From the NCBI GenBank assembly GCA_001657325.1, contig LWRO01000020.1, positions 1-64,000 on the forward strand: a stretch of DNA of 64,000 nucleotides, written 5' to 3'. This stretch comes from Geitlerinema sp. BBD 1991-9 (lineage in GTDB: Bacteria > Cyanobacteriota > Cyanobacteriia > Cyanobacteriales > Geitlerinemataceae). Position 1 is the first letter of the stretch. Each line of letters starts with the position of its first letter. The notes below the pieces were generated by a model that was not told the origin of the DNA, ran no database searches, and worked only from the letters and a program-made list of their open reading frames with translations. Both the position numbers and the translations under genes were made by a program. Below are positions 17,122-56,411 of the stretch, in pieces.

Positions 17122-18993
17122 ATGATGCCCAATTTCGAGCGTGTAGAGCCGATCGCAAACTCGATTCCATGTGCGAGTGAGAACCCTTACCCCGTGTTGC
17201 AAGTTAGCGCTGACGGGACACTGCGCTATGCGAATCCAGCAAGTTTGGCTCTGTTCGATGAGGGTAAATATTCAATTTCAATGGGCGATCGCGTGCCTCA
17301 TCTTTGGCAAGGTGTGATTTCGAGATCGATCGAGACTCAAGCGCCACAAACCTTTGAAATTCCCATTGACAATCGCTGCTTTCAGTTTACCGTCGTTCCC
17401 ACCGCTGACGGCAATGCTGCCAATTTTTACGGGATGGACATTACCCAGCGTTACCATGCCGAACGAGCGTTGCACAAATCTAACGAGCAACTGACTGCCC
17501 TCGTCCAACAGCGTACCGCACGACTCAAGCAAACCGATCGACAGTTGCAAATTCAGTTGTGGGAGCGGTTGTCGCTGCAAAAACACCTCTACGAACGGGA
17601 AAGCCAACTCGACGCGATTTTTCGCGAAGCGGCGATCGGGATTGCATTACTCGACTTGGACGGAAAAATTCTCCGCAGCAATCCCGCATTGCAGCAAATG
17701 TTTGGGGAATCTCCCGAGACGATGTCAGGGAAACTCTTTCGAGCGTTCGTCGTTTCGGGAGAGTGGGATCGCGTCGTGAACGAAGCCTTCGATCGAGGGG
17801 AATCGCTATCTGGAAAACTCGAAGTCCGCTACCACCACCGCAACCACTCGACGTTTTGGGGAACGCTGACGCTTTCAACGATCGACGACGAAGCCGGTCG
17901 ATCTCAATATCAGTTAGCGATGGTGGAAGATATCACCGATAGTAAGTTGGCACGAGATGCGTTGCAACTGACGCAATTCGCGATCGATCGAACCGCAGAT
18001 GCTGCCTTATGGATTTCACCGTCGGGAATTTCTGCATACGCCAACGAAGCGGCTTGCGAGAATTTGGGATATTCAAAAGCAGAACTGTTGAAAATGCATT
18101 TTGCTGAGATCGCCATCGACTTTCAATCTCAAGATTGGTCGGTTTTTTGGGAAAGTATTCGCCAACAGGATTCTTTTGCCTGTGAAACTCGAGTGCAGCG
18201 GTGTGACGGCGAAATTTTTCCGGTCGATTTGACCTTAAACTATATCGAATTTAATAAGCGTCAATATATTTGTGCCTTCGCCCGCGATATCACCGAACGC
18301 AAACAAGCAGAAGAAGCCTTACGAATTGCTCAGGAACGCTCCGAACGCCTGTTACTCAACATTTTCCCCAAAACCATCGCCAAACAACTCAAACAACTGT
18401 CCCACGAATACCGCCAAGTCGGCGCTGCCATCGCTCAACGGTTTGACGAAGTCACGGTTTTGTTTGCCGATATCGTCGGTTTTACTCAGTTATGCGCCAA
18501 CAGTTCGCCGACAGATTTGGTCTGGACGCTCAACCAAATTTTTTCAGCCTTCGATCGACTGACGCAAGAACTCGGCTTAGAAAAAATCAAAACCATCGGC
18601 GATGCGTATATGGTCGTTGGCGGTTTACCGGAACCGCGAGCGGATCACGCGGAAGCCGTTGCAGAACTCGCACTGGCGATGATGAACGAAGTTTCTCGTT
18701 TTAGCGCCCACAGTGGCGAGCCGATTGTCTTGCGCGTGGGAATTCACACCGGGCCGGTGATTGCTGGAGTCATTGGTTTAAATAAGTTCAGTTACGATCT
18801 CTGGGGCGATACCGTTAATCTTGCCAGTCGCATGGAATCTCAAGGTATTCCCGGCTGTATTCAAGTCACTCAAAAAACTTACGATTGCCTGCGTCATCGT
18901 TACGTCTTTGAAAAGCGAGGCACGGTCTTCGTAAAAGGACGAGGCGATACGATTTCGTATTTATTGAAAGAGCGGATTCGGGTATCGTCGTAA
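17122..18993 (+). CDS. PAS-domain adenylate cyclase (class III)
   Basis: 623 residues, soluble. A divergent PAS-like segment is at about 20-115, a coiled linker at about 115-165, PAS domains at about 165-275 and 280-400 (each ending in an EDITD/RDITERKQAEE signature), then a class III nucleotidyl cyclase domain at about 430-615. The metal-binding Asp pair is in LFADIVGF and KTIGDAYM; the adenine-selecting lysine (EKIKTIGD) and aspartate (SYDLWGD) point to ATP rather than GTP; the transition-state Asn-Arg is in NLASRMES. It should make cAMP in response to signals at the PAS domains; no cofactor-binding residues can be assigned. Two tandem ATG codons occur at the start; the first is used. Confidence 0.92.
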   Translation: MMPNFERVEPIANSIPCASENPYPVLQVSADGTLRYANPASLALFDEGKYSISMGDRVPHLWQGVISRSIETQAPQTFEIPIDNRCFQFTVVPTADGNAANFYGMDITQRYHAERALHKSNEQLTALVQQRTARLKQTDRQLQIQLWERLSLQKHLYERESQLDAIFREAAIGIALLDLDGKILRSNPALQQMFGESPETMSGKLFRAFVVSGEWDRVVNEAFDRGESLSGKLEVRYHHRNHSTFWGTLTLSTIDDEAGRSQYQLAMVEDITDSKLARDALQLTQFAIDRTADAALWISPSGISAYANEAACENLGYSKAELLKMHFAEIAIDFQSQDWSVFWESIRQQDSFACETRVQRCDGEIFPVDLTLNYIEFNKRQYICAFARDITERKQAEEALRIAQERSERLLLNIFPKTIAKQLKQLSHEYRQVGAAIAQRFDEVTVLFADIVGFTQLCANSSPTDLVWTLNQIFSAFDRLTQELGLEKIKTIGDAYMVVGGLPEPRADHAEAVAELALAMMNEVSRFSAHSGEPIVLRVGIHTGPVIAGVIGLNKFSYDLWGDTVNLASRMESQGIPGCIQVTQKTYDCLRHRYVFEKRGTVFVKGRGDTISYLLKERIRVSS

Positions 18994-26926: not shown

Positions 26927-27452
26927 TGTTTCATCTATAAGCTACCTTTTGATCTGCAGATGTTTTTATCCTATTGTATAGCATTACAGCGTTCAATTTT
27001 TTTAAAATTGAATAATATCTTGAAAATATTCAAGCCAAGACATTGTCGAATTTTTTAGGCTGTGATAAGCTTTTTAAAAAAATCTATCTATATTGAAGCA
27101 AGAATTTTACAAAAAATATCAAAATCAAAAGATCTGGCACCCAAGCATAAGTACTTATGCCTTGAAATTAAACAGCTACAGCAACCTACAATGAATTTGG
27201 CAAGCAATAAAATTGTAAGGTCGCCATTCATTTATCTTCTCCATATAAAGTAAAGCAACCAGAAGAGAATTTTCAAGGGTCTTTTGAGTTTGAGGTGATA
27301 AGCTGATTTTATACCCGGTCAAAACCCTTGCTGTAGGGGCGAACGGCCGTTCGCCCCTACCCAAATCTTGTATTCAGTTCAACAAATTACACCGTAATCT
27401 CAGGAGACCCATTTTCAATTAAAGCTTTACAGAAATCTTGAACGTATGAAGC
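26927..27452. other. AT-rich intergenic region with a perfect palindrome
   Basis: About 525 bases separate the exporter from the radical SAM gene. A 63-codon plus-strand frame at 27062 has no protein character. The only structured item is the 28-bp palindrome at 27333. Confidence 0.6.
27333..27360. repeat. Perfect 28-bp palindromic repeat (GTAGGGGCGAACGG and its complement)
   Basis: The half-site GTAGGGGCGAACGG is followed immediately by its exact reverse complement. Related copies are at 3998-4019 (imperfect), 53590-53623 (degenerate) and 56092-56119 (inside an Rpn gene). No coding capacity; REP-like or remnant of a small mobile element. Confidence 0.85.
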
Positions 27453-51479: not shown

Positions 51480-51812
51480 GTGAGTAAGTTTCCAGAGTTG
51501 AGCTTGGAGAAAATACGGGAGATGTTGGATATCACGAACGTCAGACTTCAGGACACCCAGTTTTACAAGGATGTGTTCGCCGAAGGCCGCCAAGAAGGCC
51601 GCCAAGAAGGCCGCCAGGAAGGTCTCGACCAAGGCGAACTGGAGATACTGCTACGACAGTTAACCCGTCGTTGTGGGGAACTGTCCCCCCAACAGCAGCA
51701 ACAGGTGAAGTCCCTGTCTCGGACGCAGCGGGAAGCCTTGGCGGATGCCCTGTTGGATTTTACGGGAATGGCGGATTTTGAGTCTTGGTTGGAGAGTCTC
51801 AGCGGTAGCTAA
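51480..51812 (+). pseudogene. C-terminal fragment of an Rpn/DUF4351 nuclease-transposase-like protein (copy 1)
   Basis: 110 codons from a GTG at 51480. Matches the last third of the intact gene at 55548-56411: LSLEKIREMLDITNVRLQDTQF, the DUF4351 segment LLRQLTRRCGELSPQQQQQV and LADALLDFTGMADFESWL. The N-terminal PD-(D/E)XK nuclease part is missing, so no nuclease activity is expected. A 12-bp unit (GAAGGCCGCCAA) repeats three times at 51581-51616, encoding GRQE repeats. A second, more decayed copy follows directly. Confidence 0.8.
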
Positions 51813-51815
51813 GCC

Positions 51816-52093
51816 TTGAGAAAATACGGGAGATGTTGGATATCACGAACGTCAGACTTCAGGACACCCAGTTTTACAAGGATGTGTTCGCCGAAGGGTG
51901 TCAGGAAGGCGAACTGGAGATACTGCTGCGACTGTTAACCCATCGTTGGGGGGAACTGTCCCCCCAACAGTAGCAACAGGTGAAGTTCCTGTCTCGGACG
52001 CAACGGGAAGCCTTGGCGGATGCGCTATTGGATTTTATGGGAATGGCGGATTTTCAGGCATGGTTGCAGGAAATCAGCGAACGTGAAGCGTGA
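51816..52093 (+). pseudogene. Tandem copy 2 of the Rpn/DUF4351 fragment with a nonsense codon
   Basis: Nearly the same nucleotide sequence as 51503-51800, from GAGAAAATACGGGAGATG on. It lacks the 12-bp repeat array and has a TAG at 51971-51973 where copy 1 has CAG, so the frame is broken in the DUF4351 region. The frame stays open after this to TGA at 52091-52093. A recent tandem duplication is the simplest reading. Confidence 0.8.
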
Positions 52094-52235: not shown

Positions 52236-52460
52236 ATGGGCAAAATCATGAATTCAGTTATTGTTTTTGAGGTTTTCCAAGAAGAAGAAGATGGATTTGT
52301 TGCAGAATGCTTGACTGAAAATATCTTTACTCAGGGAGATACTTGGGCAGAGTTGCGTGCGAACGTCAACGATGCGGTCAAAGGATATTATTTTGATAAA
52401 TCTAGCTTTCCCAAGGTTAAACTTCATTTGCCCAAGGAGGAGATTTTAGTCATCCAATAG
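52236..52460 (+). CDS. hicB: HicB-family antitoxin
   Basis: 74 residues. The sequence VIVFEVFQEEEDGFVAECLTE followed by TWAELRANVNDAVKGYYFD has the HicB partial RNase H-like fold (a strand, EDGFVAECLTE, and a helix). GGAG lies four bases before the ATG at 52236; an in-frame ATG at 52248 is an alternative. The lack of a C-terminal DNA-binding domain is common in short HicB proteins. It should block the toxin HicA, whose gene starts 13 bases downstream. Confidence 0.85.
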   Translation: MGKIMNSVIVFEVFQEEEDGFVAECLTENIFTQGDTWAELRANVNDAVKGYYFDKSSFPKVKLHLPKEEILVIQ

Positions 52461-52473
52461 GTGGTTCTAATTT

Positions 52474-52713
52474 ATGGAAATTCCAAAGGATCTGAAGGGA
52501 AAACATTTAGTGGAGATTCTGTGTCGGCACTGGGATTATCGAGTTTTTCATCAACAGGGCAGTCATATTATTCTAGACACGGAGTCTCCCCGTCGTCAAA
52601 GAATTAGCATGCTCAACCACAATCCGTTGCAATTAGGCACTCTGAATAGCATCTTAAGGGCAGTTGCTTCTCATAAAGATGTCAGTAAGACTGATATCTT
52701 TAACACATTGTAA
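52474..52713 (+). CDS. hicA: HicA-family mRNA interferase toxin
   Basis: 79 residues with the double-stranded-RNA-binding-like fold of HicA: KGKHLVEILCRHWDYRVFHQ, the catalytic histidine in QGSHIILDT, and HNPLQLGTLNSILRAVASH. HicA cleaves mRNA in a translation-independent way when HicB is lost. The order antitoxin-toxin (hicB first) is the less common but known arrangement. First of three toxin-antitoxin modules within 3.3 kb. Confidence 0.87.
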   Translation: MEIPKDLKGKHLVEILCRHWDYRVFHQQGSHIILDTESPRRQRISMLNHNPLQLGTLNSILRAVASHKDVSKTDIFNTL

Positions 52714-52792
52714 TCGTTGGTGAACGATCGATTTTTTTCTACAGTTGGAACTTATCGCGGAATTCGTTTTAAAGACAAGGGGAGGTTTTGTC

Positions 52793-53441
52793 GTGAGTCG
52801 AGGAAAACAGGTGGTATCGAAGCTCGTACCGATTTTAGAAAGCGGCGATCGCCTCACCCGTACTGAATTCGAGCGACGCTATCGGTTGCTGCCAGAGGTG
52901 AAGAAAGCGGAGTTGGTGGAGGGAGTGGTTTATATAGCATCGCCAGTTCGGACGAAGAATCATGCGGAACCTCACGCGAATATTATTCTATGGCTGGGGA
53001 CTTACAAAGTTGCCACTCCAGGCGTGATGCTGGGAGACAAGGCGACGGTTCGCTTGGACTTGGACTGAAGTTCAACCCGATGCTCTCTTGCGTCTCGATG
53101 AGTCGGCAGGGGGACAGTCGCGGATTCGCGAGGACGATTATATTGAGGGTGCGCCGGAGTTAATTGTGGAAATTGCGGCGAGTACGGCATCTTACGACCT
53201 CCACGATAAGTTACGGGCTTATCGTCGCAATGGGGTTCGGGAATATCTGGTTTGGGTGGTTCTGGAAGAGGAGTTTCGCTGGTACGTTCTCGAGGAGGGG
53301 GAATATCGCCAGCAGGAACCTGAGGCGGTGGGTTGTTTGAGCAGTCCGTTTTTTTCGGGGTTGGCGTTGGACGTGAAGGCACTGTTGGCGGGGGAGATGG
53401 GGCAGGTTTTGACCCGTTTGCAGGAAGGGTTGGGTCAATGA
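52793..53441 (+). pseudogene. Uma2-family endonuclease gene with a 2-bp deletion (copy A)
   Basis: Starts at GTG 52793 with GGAGG seven bases upstream, exactly as in the intact copy at 56442. The first part (SRGKQVVSKLVPILESGDRL up to ATVRLDLD) ends at TGA 53066-53068, where two A residues present in the intact copy (GGACAATGAAGTT) are missing (GGACTGAAGTT). The second part continues in the other frame to 53441 (EDDYIEGAPELIVEIAAS to LQEGLGQ). Without the shift it would be a normal PD-(D/E)XK Uma2 protein of about 216 residues. Confidence 0.88.
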
Positions 53442-53514
53442 GATCTGTTGCTTAGGAGGGGATGACAACAGGCAACGGGTCGGAGATTCTCTCCCAACTC
53501 AGAGTATTCTTCGT

Positions 53515-53660
53515 GACCGAAGTTTCGGCGGCGGCTGGATTGGGTCGAGGGTACAATGGTCAGTAATACCATTTTCAAAAATTTATCCTGTAGAGGTGAA
53601 CCGCAAGTGGTGCGCCCTCTCAGGTGGGTGTTCGGAATACGCAGTTTTATAAGGATGTGT
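53515..53660 (+). pseudogene. Remnant of an Rpn-type gene interrupted by a repeat element (copy 3)
   Basis: AGTTTCGGCGGCGGCTGGAT and TACAATGGTC match the intact gene at 56050-56090, and CGCAGTTTTATAAGGATGTG matches 56180-56199. The intervening bases 53565-53623 are not Rpn sequence but a degenerate ATACCATTTTC element with a broken palindrome, at the same place where the intact copy has its palindrome. No frame is usable. Confidence 0.65.
53565..53623. repeat. Degenerate copy of the ATACCATTT/GAACGG repeat
   Basis: Begins AATACCATTTTCAAAAATTT like the element at 3963, then CCTGTAGAGGTGAACC and GGTGCGCCCTCTCAGG, which are damaged halves of the 28-bp palindrome at 27333. Lies inside the Rpn remnant at 53515. 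Confidence 0.5.
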
Positions 53661-53734
53661 GGCAGAGGACTCACGGTGTCTCAACCCTAGCCAGTCAAGG
53701 GTCTAGGAACTTAGAAGTATTATAGGAGCGGACG

Positions 53735-53989
53735 ATGAAAACGATTGAAACTCAACAGGCTAAACAGCAATTAGATGAGACGATCGACCAGGTTATTTTA
53801 GATGTTGAACCGATAGTCTTACGGAATAAAAAGGGTCAAGAAGCTGTTTTGATGTCGTTGGAAGAGTTTAGTGCTTGGCGGGAAACGGTTTATCTTTTGT
53901 CAAATCCAGCCAATGCGGCTCATCTTCTTGAGTCTATTAAGCAAGCTGAGTCAGGTCAGACTGTTATCAAGGAACTTCTGGATGAATGA
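53735..53989 (+). CDS. Phd/YefM-family antitoxin
   Basis: 84 residues: MKTIETQQAKQQLDETIDQV and EPIVLRNKKGQEAVLMSLEEF are the Phd/YefM DNA-binding N-terminus; the C-terminus is the toxin-binding tail. TATAGGAGCG before the ATG includes GGAG. It overlaps the toxin gene by four bases (ATGA), so the two are translationally coupled. Confidence 0.9.
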   Translation: MKTIETQQAKQQLDETIDQVILDVEPIVLRNKKGQEAVLMSLEEFSAWRETVYLLSNPANAAHLLESIKQAESGQTVIKELLDE

Positions 53990-54246
53990 AGGTCAGTTTT
54001 ACCGAGTTGGCTTGGTCTGATTATCTCTGGCTACAAAAGAGGGATAAGAGGCTGTTAAAACGGGTCAATCTTCTGATTAAAGATGTGATGAGGGATGCGT
54101 TTGAGGGGATTGGCAAGCCAGAACCTTTGAAGGGGAATTTGTCCGGTTACTGGTCAAGGCGGATTGATGGGGAGCATCGTTTGGTGTATCGGGTGTTTGG
54201 AGATGAAATTTTAATCGTTTCCTGTCGGTTTCACTATGAGAGATGA
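53986..54246 (+). CDS. yoeB: YoeB-type mRNA interferase toxin
   Basis: 86 residues, RelE/YoeB fold: ELAWSDYLWLQKRDKRLLKR, the catalytic region GIGKPEPLKGNLSGYWSRRI, and DGEHRLVYRV with CRFHYER at the end, including the terminal His-Tyr of the active site. YoeB cuts mRNA at the ribosome. Complete and apparently functional, with its YefM partner directly upstream. Confidence 0.92.
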   Translation: MKVSFTELAWSDYLWLQKRDKRLLKRVNLLIKDVMRDAFEGIGKPEPLKGNLSGYWSRRIDGEHRLVYRVFGDEILIVSCRFHYER

Positions 54247-54691
54247 CTTCGGGATCGGGAGGCTGTCAATGTCTCAGGATGAGGTATCGGAAAATATTCG
54301 TCGGCTGTTGGCGCCGGGGGGACAGTCGCGGATTAGCGAGGACGATTATATTGAAGGTGCGCCAGAGTTAATTGTGGAAATTGCGGCGAGTACGGCATCT
54401 TACGACCTCCACGATAAGTTACGGGCGTACCGTCGGAACGGGGTTCGGGAATATCTGGTTTGGGTGGTTCTGGAAGAGGAGTTTCGCTGGTACGTTCTCG
54501 AGGAGGGGGAATATCGCTAGCAGGAACCGGACGCGGCGGGGTGTTTGAGCAGTCCGTTTTTTCCGGGGTTGGTGTTGGACGTGAAGGCTCTGTTGGCGGG
54601 GGAGATGGGGCAGGTTTTGATGAGGTTACAGGAGGGGATTGGTTCGCCGGAACACGAGCGGTTTGTCGAGGCATTGGGGTCGGTTCAGTGA
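54236..54691 (+). pseudogene. Chimera of an Rpn fragment and a Uma2 gene with a nonsense codon (copy B)
   Basis: Residues from ATG 54269 read MSQDEVSENIRRLLAPGG, matching the Rpn segment SEEEAPENARRLLAQGG of 55548-56411, and then directly continue QSRISEDDYIEGAPELIV as in Uma2 copies A and C. The joint falls in a shared G-rich stretch. Later the frame meets TAG at 54518-54520 where copies A and C have CAG, and stays open to TGA 54689-54691. Two unrelated gene families were therefore joined by short-homology recombination, then broken by a point mutation. Confidence 0.8.
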
Positions 54692-54785
54692 GGGCGGTTG
54701 GCAGAGTTTCTCGTTATCGCTTTGCTGCTATTGGTACAATGGGAGAGTGAGTTCATCCTATCATTAAATAGCCGAATCATCCACT

Positions 54786-55067
54786 ATGCTAAACATTCGT
54801 CTAAAGACCCACATCGGAGACGATGGAATCTTGAAAGTACAGATGCCCTCGGATGTCAGGAATACTGAACTTGACGTTTTGGTGGTATTTCAAGCGACGA
54901 CCTCTCCAGGACAGGACCCGGCAGCCAAGAACTACGAGTGGCCTTCGGGTTTCTTTGAAAAAACTTGGGGAAGTTGTGCGGATGCTCCCATCATTATTGA
55001 TGAAGAAGGAGTTTCTACGGAATTAGACGATCCGCCGGAAGAGTTGTTCGCCACTCAAGACATTTAA
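54786..55067 (+). CDS. Probable antitoxin of a VapBC-type module
   Basis: 93 residues. The N-terminus IRLKTHIGDDGILKVQMPSD is a short beta-rich segment seen in antitoxins that partner PIN toxins; the C-terminus is acidic (IIIDEEGVSTELDDPPEELF) and likely disordered, as in antitoxin tails. The stop TAA is followed directly by the GTG start of the PIN toxin gene, which is broken. Assignment rests on this gene order and composition, not on a named family. Confidence 0.65.
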   Translation: MLNIRLKTHIGDDGILKVQMPSDVRNTELDVLVVFQATTSPGQDPAAKNYEWPSGFFEKTWGSCADAPIIIDEEGVSTELDDPPEELFATQDI

Positions 55068-55469
55068 GTGCTGTATTTACTCGATACCAATGTTGTCGCC
55101 ATGTACTTGAATCGGCGATCGCCAATCCTACGGGCTAAATTGGAAGCGATCGCCCCGAGAGATATTGCTGTTTGTTCTGTGGTAAAGTTTGAGTTAGTTT
55201 ATGGCGCAATGCGGAGTTGAAATCCACCGCGAAATCTGGCCAAGCAACAAGAATTTTTAGATTATTTTGTTTCTTTACCGTTCGATGATAGGGCAGCAAA
55301 AAAAGCGGGAGATATTAGAAATAATTTGGCGGGTTTGGGAACGCCAATCGGCCTTTATGATTTGCTAATTGCCGCGATCGCGATCGTCAATGATTTAATA
55401 CTGGTCACTCACAATACAAGAGAGTTTGAACGGGTAACGGAGTTGAAATTGGAAGATTGGGAAGTGTAG
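55068..55469 (+). pseudogene. vapC: VapC-family PIN-domain toxin gene with one in-frame stop
   Basis: 134 codons from a GTG directly after the antitoxin stop. PIN-domain acidic residues are in place: YLLDTNVVAMYL (Asp 6), VVKFELVYGAM (Glu 42), GLYDLLIAA and LVTHNTREFERV. Only codon 51 (55218-55220) is TGA, right after AMRS; the frame is otherwise open to TAG at 55467. One base change (for example CGA to TGA) would restore it. PIN toxins are RNases, here probably inactive because the N-terminal 50 residues lack half the active site. Confidence 0.88.
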
Positions 55470-55547: not shown

Positions 55548-56411
55548 ATGAAAACGGATAAGCTTTTTTACCGCATCTTCCTGTTGGAACCAAACTTGGT
55601 GGCGGAGTTAATTCCGGATCTACCCCCAGACTGCCGCTTTGATTATTTTGCCCCAGTTCTGAAGGAACGGGAACGCCGCTTGGATGGGGTATTAGTGCCG
55701 CTGGGGGATGACCCAAGTTTGCCATTGGTGTTTCTAGAAGCGCAGATGCAAACTGACCCTGGATTTTATCGCCGTTTTTTTGCTCAGGTGTTTCTCTATC
55801 TGGAACAGTATCAGGTGACGCGACCTTGGCGGGGTCTGTTGTTGTTTCCTCGCCGCACGTTGAATTTTGGGGAGGAAGACCCTTATCAAGGGGTGTTAGC
55901 GACTCAGGTGGAACGGTTTTATCTGGAGGATTTGATTCCGTTAGAGGAGTTGACGCCGAATTTGGCTCTGTTGCGATTGTTGGTGCTATCGGAGGAGGAA
56001 GCCCCGGAGAATGCTCGTCGTCTGTTGGCGCAAGGCGGGACGGAGCGGGAGTTTCGGCGGCGGCTGGATTTGGTCGAGAGTATCATGGTCTGTAGGGGCG
56101 AACGGCCGTTCGCCCTCCCTAATTTGAGCTTGGAGGCGATACGGGAGATGTTGGATATTACTCAGGTGCGCGTTCAGGATACGCAGTTTTATAAGGATGT
56201 GTTCGAGAAGGGACAGGAGCAAGGTTTGGAACGGGGAGAGTCTGAACTGTTGCTGCGTCTGTTGACTCGGCGCTGTGGGGAGTTGTCTGAGGAGCAGCGG
56301 CAACGGGTTAGGGACTTGTCGGCACCTCAGCGGGAAGCCCTGGCGGATGCACTGTTGGATTTTACGGGAATGGCAGATTTTCAGGTTTGGTTGCAGCAGC
56401 AGTCTGTGTGA
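55548..56411 (+). CDS. Rpn-type recombination-promoting nuclease / putative transposase (DUF2887-DUF4351)
   Basis: 287 residues, the only full-length copy here. The N-terminal PD-(D/E)XK nuclease part reads KTDKLFYRIFLLEPNLVAEL, CRFDYFAPVLKERERRLDGV and FLEAQMQ (catalytic Asp/Glu-x-Gln). The C-terminal DUF4351 is LLRLLTRRCGELSEEQRQRV to GMADFQVWL. At 56092-56119 a palindromic repeat (GTAGGGGCGAACGGCC type) has been inserted in frame, adding the residues CRGERPFALP between VESIMV and NLSLEAIREML where copy 1 has VSKFPELSLEKIREML. The family promotes DNA breaks and RecA-independent recombination in relatives. Probably still translated. Confidence 0.88.
   Translation: MKTDKLFYRIFLLEPNLVAELIPDLPPDCRFDYFAPVLKERERRLDGVLVPLGDDPSLPLVFLEAQMQTDPGFYRRFFAQVFLYLEQYQVTRPWRGLLLFPRRTLNFGEEDPYQGVLATQVERFYLEDLIPLEELTPNLALLRLLVLSEEEAPENARRLLAQGGTEREFRRRLDLVESIMVCRGERPFALPNLSLEAIREMLDITQVRVQDTQFYKDVFEKGQEQGLERGESELLLRLLTRRCGELSEEQRQRVRDLSAPQREALADALLDFTGMADFQVWLQQQSV
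56092..56119. repeat. Palindromic repeat inserted inside the Rpn coding frame
   Basis: GTAGGGGCGAACGG followed by CCGTTCGCCC and TCC; the central 20 bases (56096-56115) are a perfect palindrome and the outer ones nearly so. Related to the 28-bp palindrome at 27333. The insertion keeps the reading frame. Confidence 0.8.

Follow-up and report, generated by a model that had tools for sequence, protein, structure and literature searches.

In the available text of Di Nocera et al. (2013; PMC3733652), GTAG-tagged REPs are described, among them the cyanobacterial families GTAG-12, -15 and -16, and REPs lying inside ORFs are reported, with one case (recB of Xanthomonas) in which related species have a REP at about the same place. 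REPs inside tnpA_REP (RAYT) genes are a known trait of the cyanobacterial subclass 2.4 (PMC6006769). In E. coli the product of an Rpn gene (RpnL) is a toxic nuclease, and an internal start yields its C-terminal antitoxin (RpnS); stand-alone DUF4351 genes also occur, and four-residue repeats vary in number (PMC10327210). Blocking of RpnL toxicity by RpnS and protection against phage are further traits of these systems. In-gene REPs, even in their own transposase gene, are already known, and what is new in the locus presented here is the position of the insertions, immediately upstream of an internal ATG (Met201) that is invariant and has the strongest conserved Shine-Dalgarno (SD) signal of the gene family. 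The literature searched yielded no other REP site that is occupied recurrently and in frame at the junction of a predicted gene-within-a-gene toxin-antitoxin. We consider it probable that a GTAG REP entered the linker between the nuclease and DUF4351 parts of an Rpn-like gene in frame, and that it persists since the linker is permissive and would separate two products that are each translated from their own start.

The gene lies in the 64-kb stretch of DNA that was analysed, hereafter the window. Coordinates are those of the window unless a contig or locus of a numbered genome is given, G000 being the window genome.

Table. Positions of the Rpn-like gene, its inserted hairpin and related features.
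Feature	Position	Strand	Remarks
Symmetric 28-nt copy of the same palindrome, GTAG...CTAC	27333..27360	.	outside long ORFs, within a larger repeat found elsewhere in the genome
Stand-alone DUF4351 ORF, 110 aa	51480..51812	+	PF14261 1.2e-19; RQEG four-residue repeats; own GGAG...ATG (ATG 51522)
Second, decayed DUF4351 copy	51806..52078	+	two in-frame TAG
Remnant of another Rpn-like copy	53521..53660	+	linker region only
Damaged GTAG hairpin GTAGAGGTGAACCGCAAGTGGTGCGCCC	53590..53617	+	different loop; counterpart exactly at the linker in L140:6607
Rpn-like gene, 287 aa	55548..56411	+	DUF2887 nuclease-type domain, residues 3-202; DUF4351, residues 224-282
Inserted unit CTGTAGGGGCGAACGGCCGTTCGCCCTC	56090..56117	+	replaces 10 nt of ancestral linker, net +18 nt; against empty sites of G002, G005, G007, G009, G010, G013
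GTAG-tagged REP hairpin proper GTAGGGGCGAACGGCCGTTCGCCC	56092..56115	+	GTAG plus GGGCGAAC/GTTCGCCC stem, GGCC centre
Predicted internal ribosome-binding site GGAGG	56132..56136	+	11 nt upstream of the internal ATG
Predicted separately translated C-terminal protein, RpnS-like antitoxin, 87 aa	56148..56411	+	Met201-Val287; invariant Met201, SD signal, analogy with PMC10327210
RAYT-like ORF, 200 aa	G000 C17:6047-6646 = L012:1753-2352		flanked by the same 28-mer

Pfam analysis of the window gene product revealed DUF2887 (5.4e-51) and DUF4351 (PF14261; 3.4e-19), while TIGR01784, the model of the Rpn family, matched weakly (24.8 bits, below the cut-off of 52.1), and the name Rpn given in the first-pass annotation is right in this broad sense. 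The gene is the sole full-length copy of its DUF2887+DUF4351 subfamily found in the 6.0-Mb genome (113 contigs), and the homologues matched to it include those of Baaleninema simplex PCC 7105 and of Phormidium genomes. Its ORF is intact and conserved and is under purifying selection, dN/dS against homologues with an empty linker being 0.10-0.18 and that between empty homologues 0.12-0.13. For a PD-(D/E)XK nuclease N-terminal domain, a tentative assignment here, residues D46, E64 and Q66 are invariant in the alignment. The C-terminal part carries four-residue repeats (GRQE/EGRQ) whose number varies among homologues. The AF2 model (mean pLDDT 79) showed a helix at residues 166-182 with the insert at its end, in a low-confidence linker distant from the conserved D46/E64/Q66 region, and a Foldseek comparison of the model with BamHI gave a weak match (E 0.065, prob 0.96). 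The sequence search of solved structures with the window gene yielded no match, nor did PADLOC.

Alignment of the linkers indicated that the intact close homologues (G002, G005, G007, G009, G010 and G013) read LVESIMV(S/G)(K/R)FPNLSLEAIREML or near that. The empty DNA state is ATGGT-CAGTAAGTTC-CCTAATTTG and that of the window gene ATGGT-CTGTAGGGGCGAACGGCCGTTCGCCCTC-CCTAATTTG, 10 nt being exchanged for 28 nt in frame. At the protein level the close relatives have MV(S/G)KFPNLSL and the window gene has MVCRGERPFALPNLSL, with VCRGERPFALPNLSL as the predicted peptide across the insert; CRGERPFAL stands in place of (S/G)KF, a net addition of 6 residues. The first-pass annotation had proposed a palindromic insert of 28 bases adding CRGERPFALP to the nuclease gene. 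The palindrome and its frame were upheld, while the edges were moved to CTGTAG...GCCCTC, the last P proved ancestral and the loss of 10 nt had to be added. The boundaries chosen are supported by single REPs elsewhere in the relatives, which tend to have (C/T)T ahead of GTAG and TCC following the hairpin. As in GTAG REPs, the GTAG foot adjoins a GC-rich hairpin. The close homologues are without the residues encoded by the hairpin, so these are not ancestral in all members of the family.

Occupied paralogues were found at the same linker in four related species (G005, G007, G010 and G013), with three loops (GGCC, CCCTTGTGG and CCGCAAGTGG) and two insertion points; most of these copies are broken, and a part of the occupied states may therefore be neutral debris. 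The paralogue fragment of G005 has junctions and residues identical to those of the window gene, and the palindrome that they share may be one inherited insertion; the tree of the right flanks of the window and G005 occupied copies gave no resolution of shared against separate origin. Paralogues of G007 and G013 have the outer edges of the window gene with the loop CCCTTGTGG, while one paralogue of G007 has the loop CCGCAAGTGG, which is that of the hairpin in the window remnant. The second insertion point, between GGATTTGGT and ATGGTC, lies a few codons upstream and is occupied in G010 and G013; a single G013 copy has a hairpin at each point, and one G007 copy looks as if the two had recombined. 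The linker REP of one G007 copy (L140:11765-13240) is split by about 1.4 kb of inserted DNA, with CCCTTGTGG repeated at both ends. In G010 a symmetric REP with a AAAAATTTTT centre replaces the codons right after the start codon of another DUF2887 gene (L141:6630-6657).

The equivalent linker of Planktothricoides (genus g40), which belongs to another family, carries GTAGGGGCGAACGGCCGTTCGCCCCTAC in a different reading frame, and the protein reads YLDLVVGANGRSPLLVNKF where the empty state is YLDLVEAILVNKF (net +18 nt). The ORF containing the insert residues VGANGRSPL is intact in two species (G049, 307 aa; G071, 287 aa), and a third (G196) has at the same place a 29-nt hairpin with another loop, in a short frame. 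The linker is empty in the best next matches outside the genus, and in an alignment of 91 linkers, drawn from genomes near and far, a REP-derived insert was confined to the Planktothricoides rows. Only 14 substitutions separate the two Planktothricoides copies, too few to judge selection after the insertion. The same linker is occupied repeatedly in two cyanobacterial families, with different loops and frames. The Planktothricoides insertion is independent of that in the window's family, so that the linker was entered in no fewer than two independent events, and probably in three, as two points are occupied in family f1. The linker is, as these alignments indicate, a recurrent and tolerated landing place and not a one-off. 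A preferred target and a copy that later decayed had been offered in the first-pass annotation as alternatives; both apply, recurrent occupation going together with duplication and decay (G005, G007, G010, G013 and the 53590 remnant).

The tagged palindrome pattern occurs at 2 places in the window and at none in shuffles, and gave 77 strand-hits in the whole genome (about 50 sites), the reversed control pattern giving 0. Nearly all copies lie outside long ORFs and many are the symmetric 28-mer GTAG...CTAC within larger repeats; the family is high-copy, dispersed and mainly intergenic, and of the sites examined only those in the window gene and in the RAYT-like ORF are internal to a frame. The pattern used retrieved no empty copy of the larger intergenic repeat in which the palindrome sits. 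Another type of repeat, whose long flanks are conserved (ttcatgccatagatgtct-GTAGGGGCGAACGGTGTTCGCC-caagttcagccgaagatctctagcaggatta), is present at L004:1450-1590 and about 20 other G000 loci; it numbers about 22 copies and may be a MITE- or RNA-like element with the REP hairpin inside it. A 205-aa ORF resembling an acetyltransferase (L055; G000 C91:80842-80869) is apparently extended at its C-terminus through a REP (VGANGRSPL).

A RAYT-like gene flanked by the same repeat is present in the genome. The PF01797 search, with only two IS200-type matches, had suggested that the window genome lacks a RAYT, and this was overturned by the REP-flanked RAYT-like ORFs found in the NF047646 search. The ORF listed in the table is matched by NF047646 in two pieces, below the 80-bit cut-off, and by Pfam Y1_Tnp with 26.5 bits, just over the cut-off of 23. 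One of the flanking 28-mers supplies its TAG stop, and it carries the perfect palindrome GTCGGGGCGAACGGCCGTTCGCCCCGAC in frame (VGANGRSP). In this palindrome GTAG is changed to GTCG and CTAC symmetrically to CGAC, the hairpin being still perfect and both GTAG feet gone. The exact 28-mer is found in frame in a RAYT-like ORF of Planktothricoides. A second RAYT-like gene of the window genome (L307:1154-1752; C86, REP 18875-18902) is interrupted and broken by the symmetric 28-mer, the flanks of which derive from the repeat.

Wherever empty and occupied alleles could be set side by side, the junction had cost the target some of its bases: 10 nt in the linker, about 15 at the DUF2887 start codon of G010, about 12 in a Uma2 gene and at least 20 at two spacers; outside the linker only few intergenic polymorphic sites were informative, and a general replacement rule is not claimed. 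A clean one-step insertion with target duplication was not seen in the informative pairs of empty and occupied sites, which lose target bases. Simple Y1 transposition, as in IS200/IS605, does not predict such a loss. At several junctions the element ends share 1-3 nt with the target, and in this small sample the base loss and the shared end bases may be signs of template switching or of an exchange of hairpins, and not of plain transposition. In a spacer by a tRNA-looking gene of G007 (L264; C1:1090520-1090545) a GTAG REP takes the place of a small inverted repeat, unrelated to it, that is present in G005, one hairpin being replaced by another.

Met201 is invariant in 27 aligned homologues. 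The anti-Shine-Dalgarno pairing of the 18 nt before it averaged -9.4 kcal/mol, while that of the other internal Met codons averaged -3.6, a comparison whose p-values are not to be taken at face value since the homologues are related and not phylogenetically independent. Against synonymous shuffles using each gene's own codon usage, the columns of residues 199-203 were the strongest of 269 (mean z -1.8 to -2.1); the column-wise control, run on the same sequences throughout, had a column mean of 0.03 and an sd of 0.43, and the next unrelated column reached -0.96. An internal translation start at Met201 is strongly predicted by these sequence signals, and the SD-like GAGGAG could be kept for other reasons. 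The window REP ends 13-17 nt upstream of the SD GGAGG. The occupied linkers of the close relatives and of Planktothricoides keep a purine-rich SD-like stretch and the ATG, which the decayed 53590 remnant fails to do.

The DUF4351 part is also found as a stand-alone gene, a feature of Rpn systems. The ORF at 51480 had been described as a fragment in which the linker is empty. It does show the empty state (it reads VSKFPELSLEKIREML) but is an open DUF4351 frame, and its own GGAG, ATG and RQEG repeats (12-nt repeats at 51582-51629) make it a candidate stand-alone antitoxin and not plainly a dead fragment. The remnant near 53515 with a damaged palindrome was borne out, its hairpin differing in the loop and having shifted edges. 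The region beside the Rpn-like gene (52236-55220) is a dense toxin-antitoxin run forming a toxin-antitoxin/nuclease island. The neighbours comprise a HicA-like gene at 52474 (just under the cut-off), Phd/YefM and YoeB (53735-54246), a truncated PIN/VapC (55068-55220) and several decayed Uma2 copies.

In the mechanism that we propose, a GTAG-family REP of the kind copied by REP-associated tyrosine transposases would enter the nuclease/DUF4351 linker, swapping out about 10 nt with the frame kept, and would move by the transposase or by template switching between hairpins. The linker would tolerate insertions because nothing essential seems to be located there, the nuclease fold ending before it and the antitoxin-like part starting after it, and this tolerance would be enough to explain the recurrence. 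As a structurally permissive linker between two separately translated products it would let the insertions persist. The DUF4351 part would keep its own ribosome-binding site and ATG, and the hairpin would spare the long nuclease as well as the short, antitoxin-like protein while perhaps shifting their ratio and with it the antitoxin output.

Somewhat short of an even chance, a single ancient insertion may have occurred in the ancestor of the window's cyanobacterial family and been spread by gene duplication and conversion, the loops being changed by REP exchange in place. This agrees with the identical outer edges (ATGGY/YTGTAG...CGCCCTC/CCTAA) around three loops, with the tandem paralogue clusters in G007, G010 and G013 and with the same site holding another loop in G196 than in G049 and G071, but not with the second insertion point in G010 and G013, occupied together with the first in one G013 copy, nor with the Planktothricoides REP, which is in a different reading frame, in a distant lineage and among empty relatives.

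A true target-site preference, in which the transposase would recognise the linker DNA, e.g. AGTA or TATAC motifs matching the GTAG...CTAC ends, is unlikely. The 1-3 nt shared at the junctions speak for it (GTA with the target AGTAA; TAC with the targets TATACTGG, in Planktothricoides, and TTTTACCGC, in G010 at L141:6630), but this microhomology is short, the same gene family is also hit at its start codon (L141:6630), other REPs lie in Uma2 genes and spacers, and tolerance alone explains survival at the linker.

It is equally doubtful that the residues encoded by the REP, or its hairpin in the RNA, serve a use such as the tuning of RpnS production or the lengthening of the linker. The gene is intact and conserved, the identical in-frame insert is kept in two Planktothricoides species, and the hairpin lies just upstream of the predicted internal ribosome-binding site, the local RNA folding at -30.7 kcal/mol in the window allele (96 nt) and at -13.8 in the empty G005 allele (78 nt). 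Against this, the inserted peptide is not conserved across lineages, in which frames and loops differ, the few substitutions between the Planktothricoides copies cannot show selection on the insert, and the local RNA does form a hairpin but its whole fold is not unusual against shuffles (z -0.80). The suggestion in the first-pass annotation of an exaptation in progress found no positive evidence; the low dN/dS against empty copies shows that the insert is tolerated, not that it is used. Still more speculative, and rather improbable, is that REP hairpins repeatedly land in the leader of the Rpn-like internal antitoxin start and act as movable regulators of the toxin:antitoxin ratio, a selfish 28-nt repeat tuning an anti-phage gene-within-a-gene. 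That the palindrome is ordinary coding sequence, a chance or annotation artefact, has practically no probability, being refuted by the genome copy number, against none for the reversed control, and by the clean empty alleles in relatives, with no point found in its favour.

Natural alleles that match one another as here (empty, one REP, two REPs, three loop types), at a single defined protein linker and from two independent lineages, are rare; on them it can be tested by what route REPs come into genes and whether REPs within genes have any effect. The results also predict that the intragenic antitoxin arrangement of E. coli Rpn extends to the large cyanobacterial DUF2887 family, with a precise start codon.

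Compared with the GTAG REPs in the available text of PMC3733652, the elements described here are alike in the GTAG foot, the GC-rich hairpin, the tens of copies with some wholly within ORFs, and the RAYT flanked by repeats with a REP giving its TAG stop. They differ in the recurrent Rpn-like linker and the internal start, absent from the text of that paper as searched. Rickettsia palindromic elements (RPE), as cited in the same text, are likewise palindromes in frame within protein genes, a likeness of behaviour only; they belong to another phylum, have another tag and enter many unrelated genes, while here one gene family is entered repeatedly. Subclass 2.4 (PMC6006769) is matched by the RAYT-like ORFs with the in-frame palindrome (VGANGRSP) in the window genome and in Planktothricoides, but there the host gene is the transposase itself and here it is an unrelated nuclease gene. 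RpnL/RpnS (PMC10327210) share with the window gene an N-terminal domain of nuclease type, here putative, a C-terminal DUF4351, variable four-residue repeats, the internal start, here predicted, and stand-alone DUF4351 genes; the window gene differs in having an N-terminal domain of the DUF2887 type and REPs at the predicted toxin/antitoxin junction.
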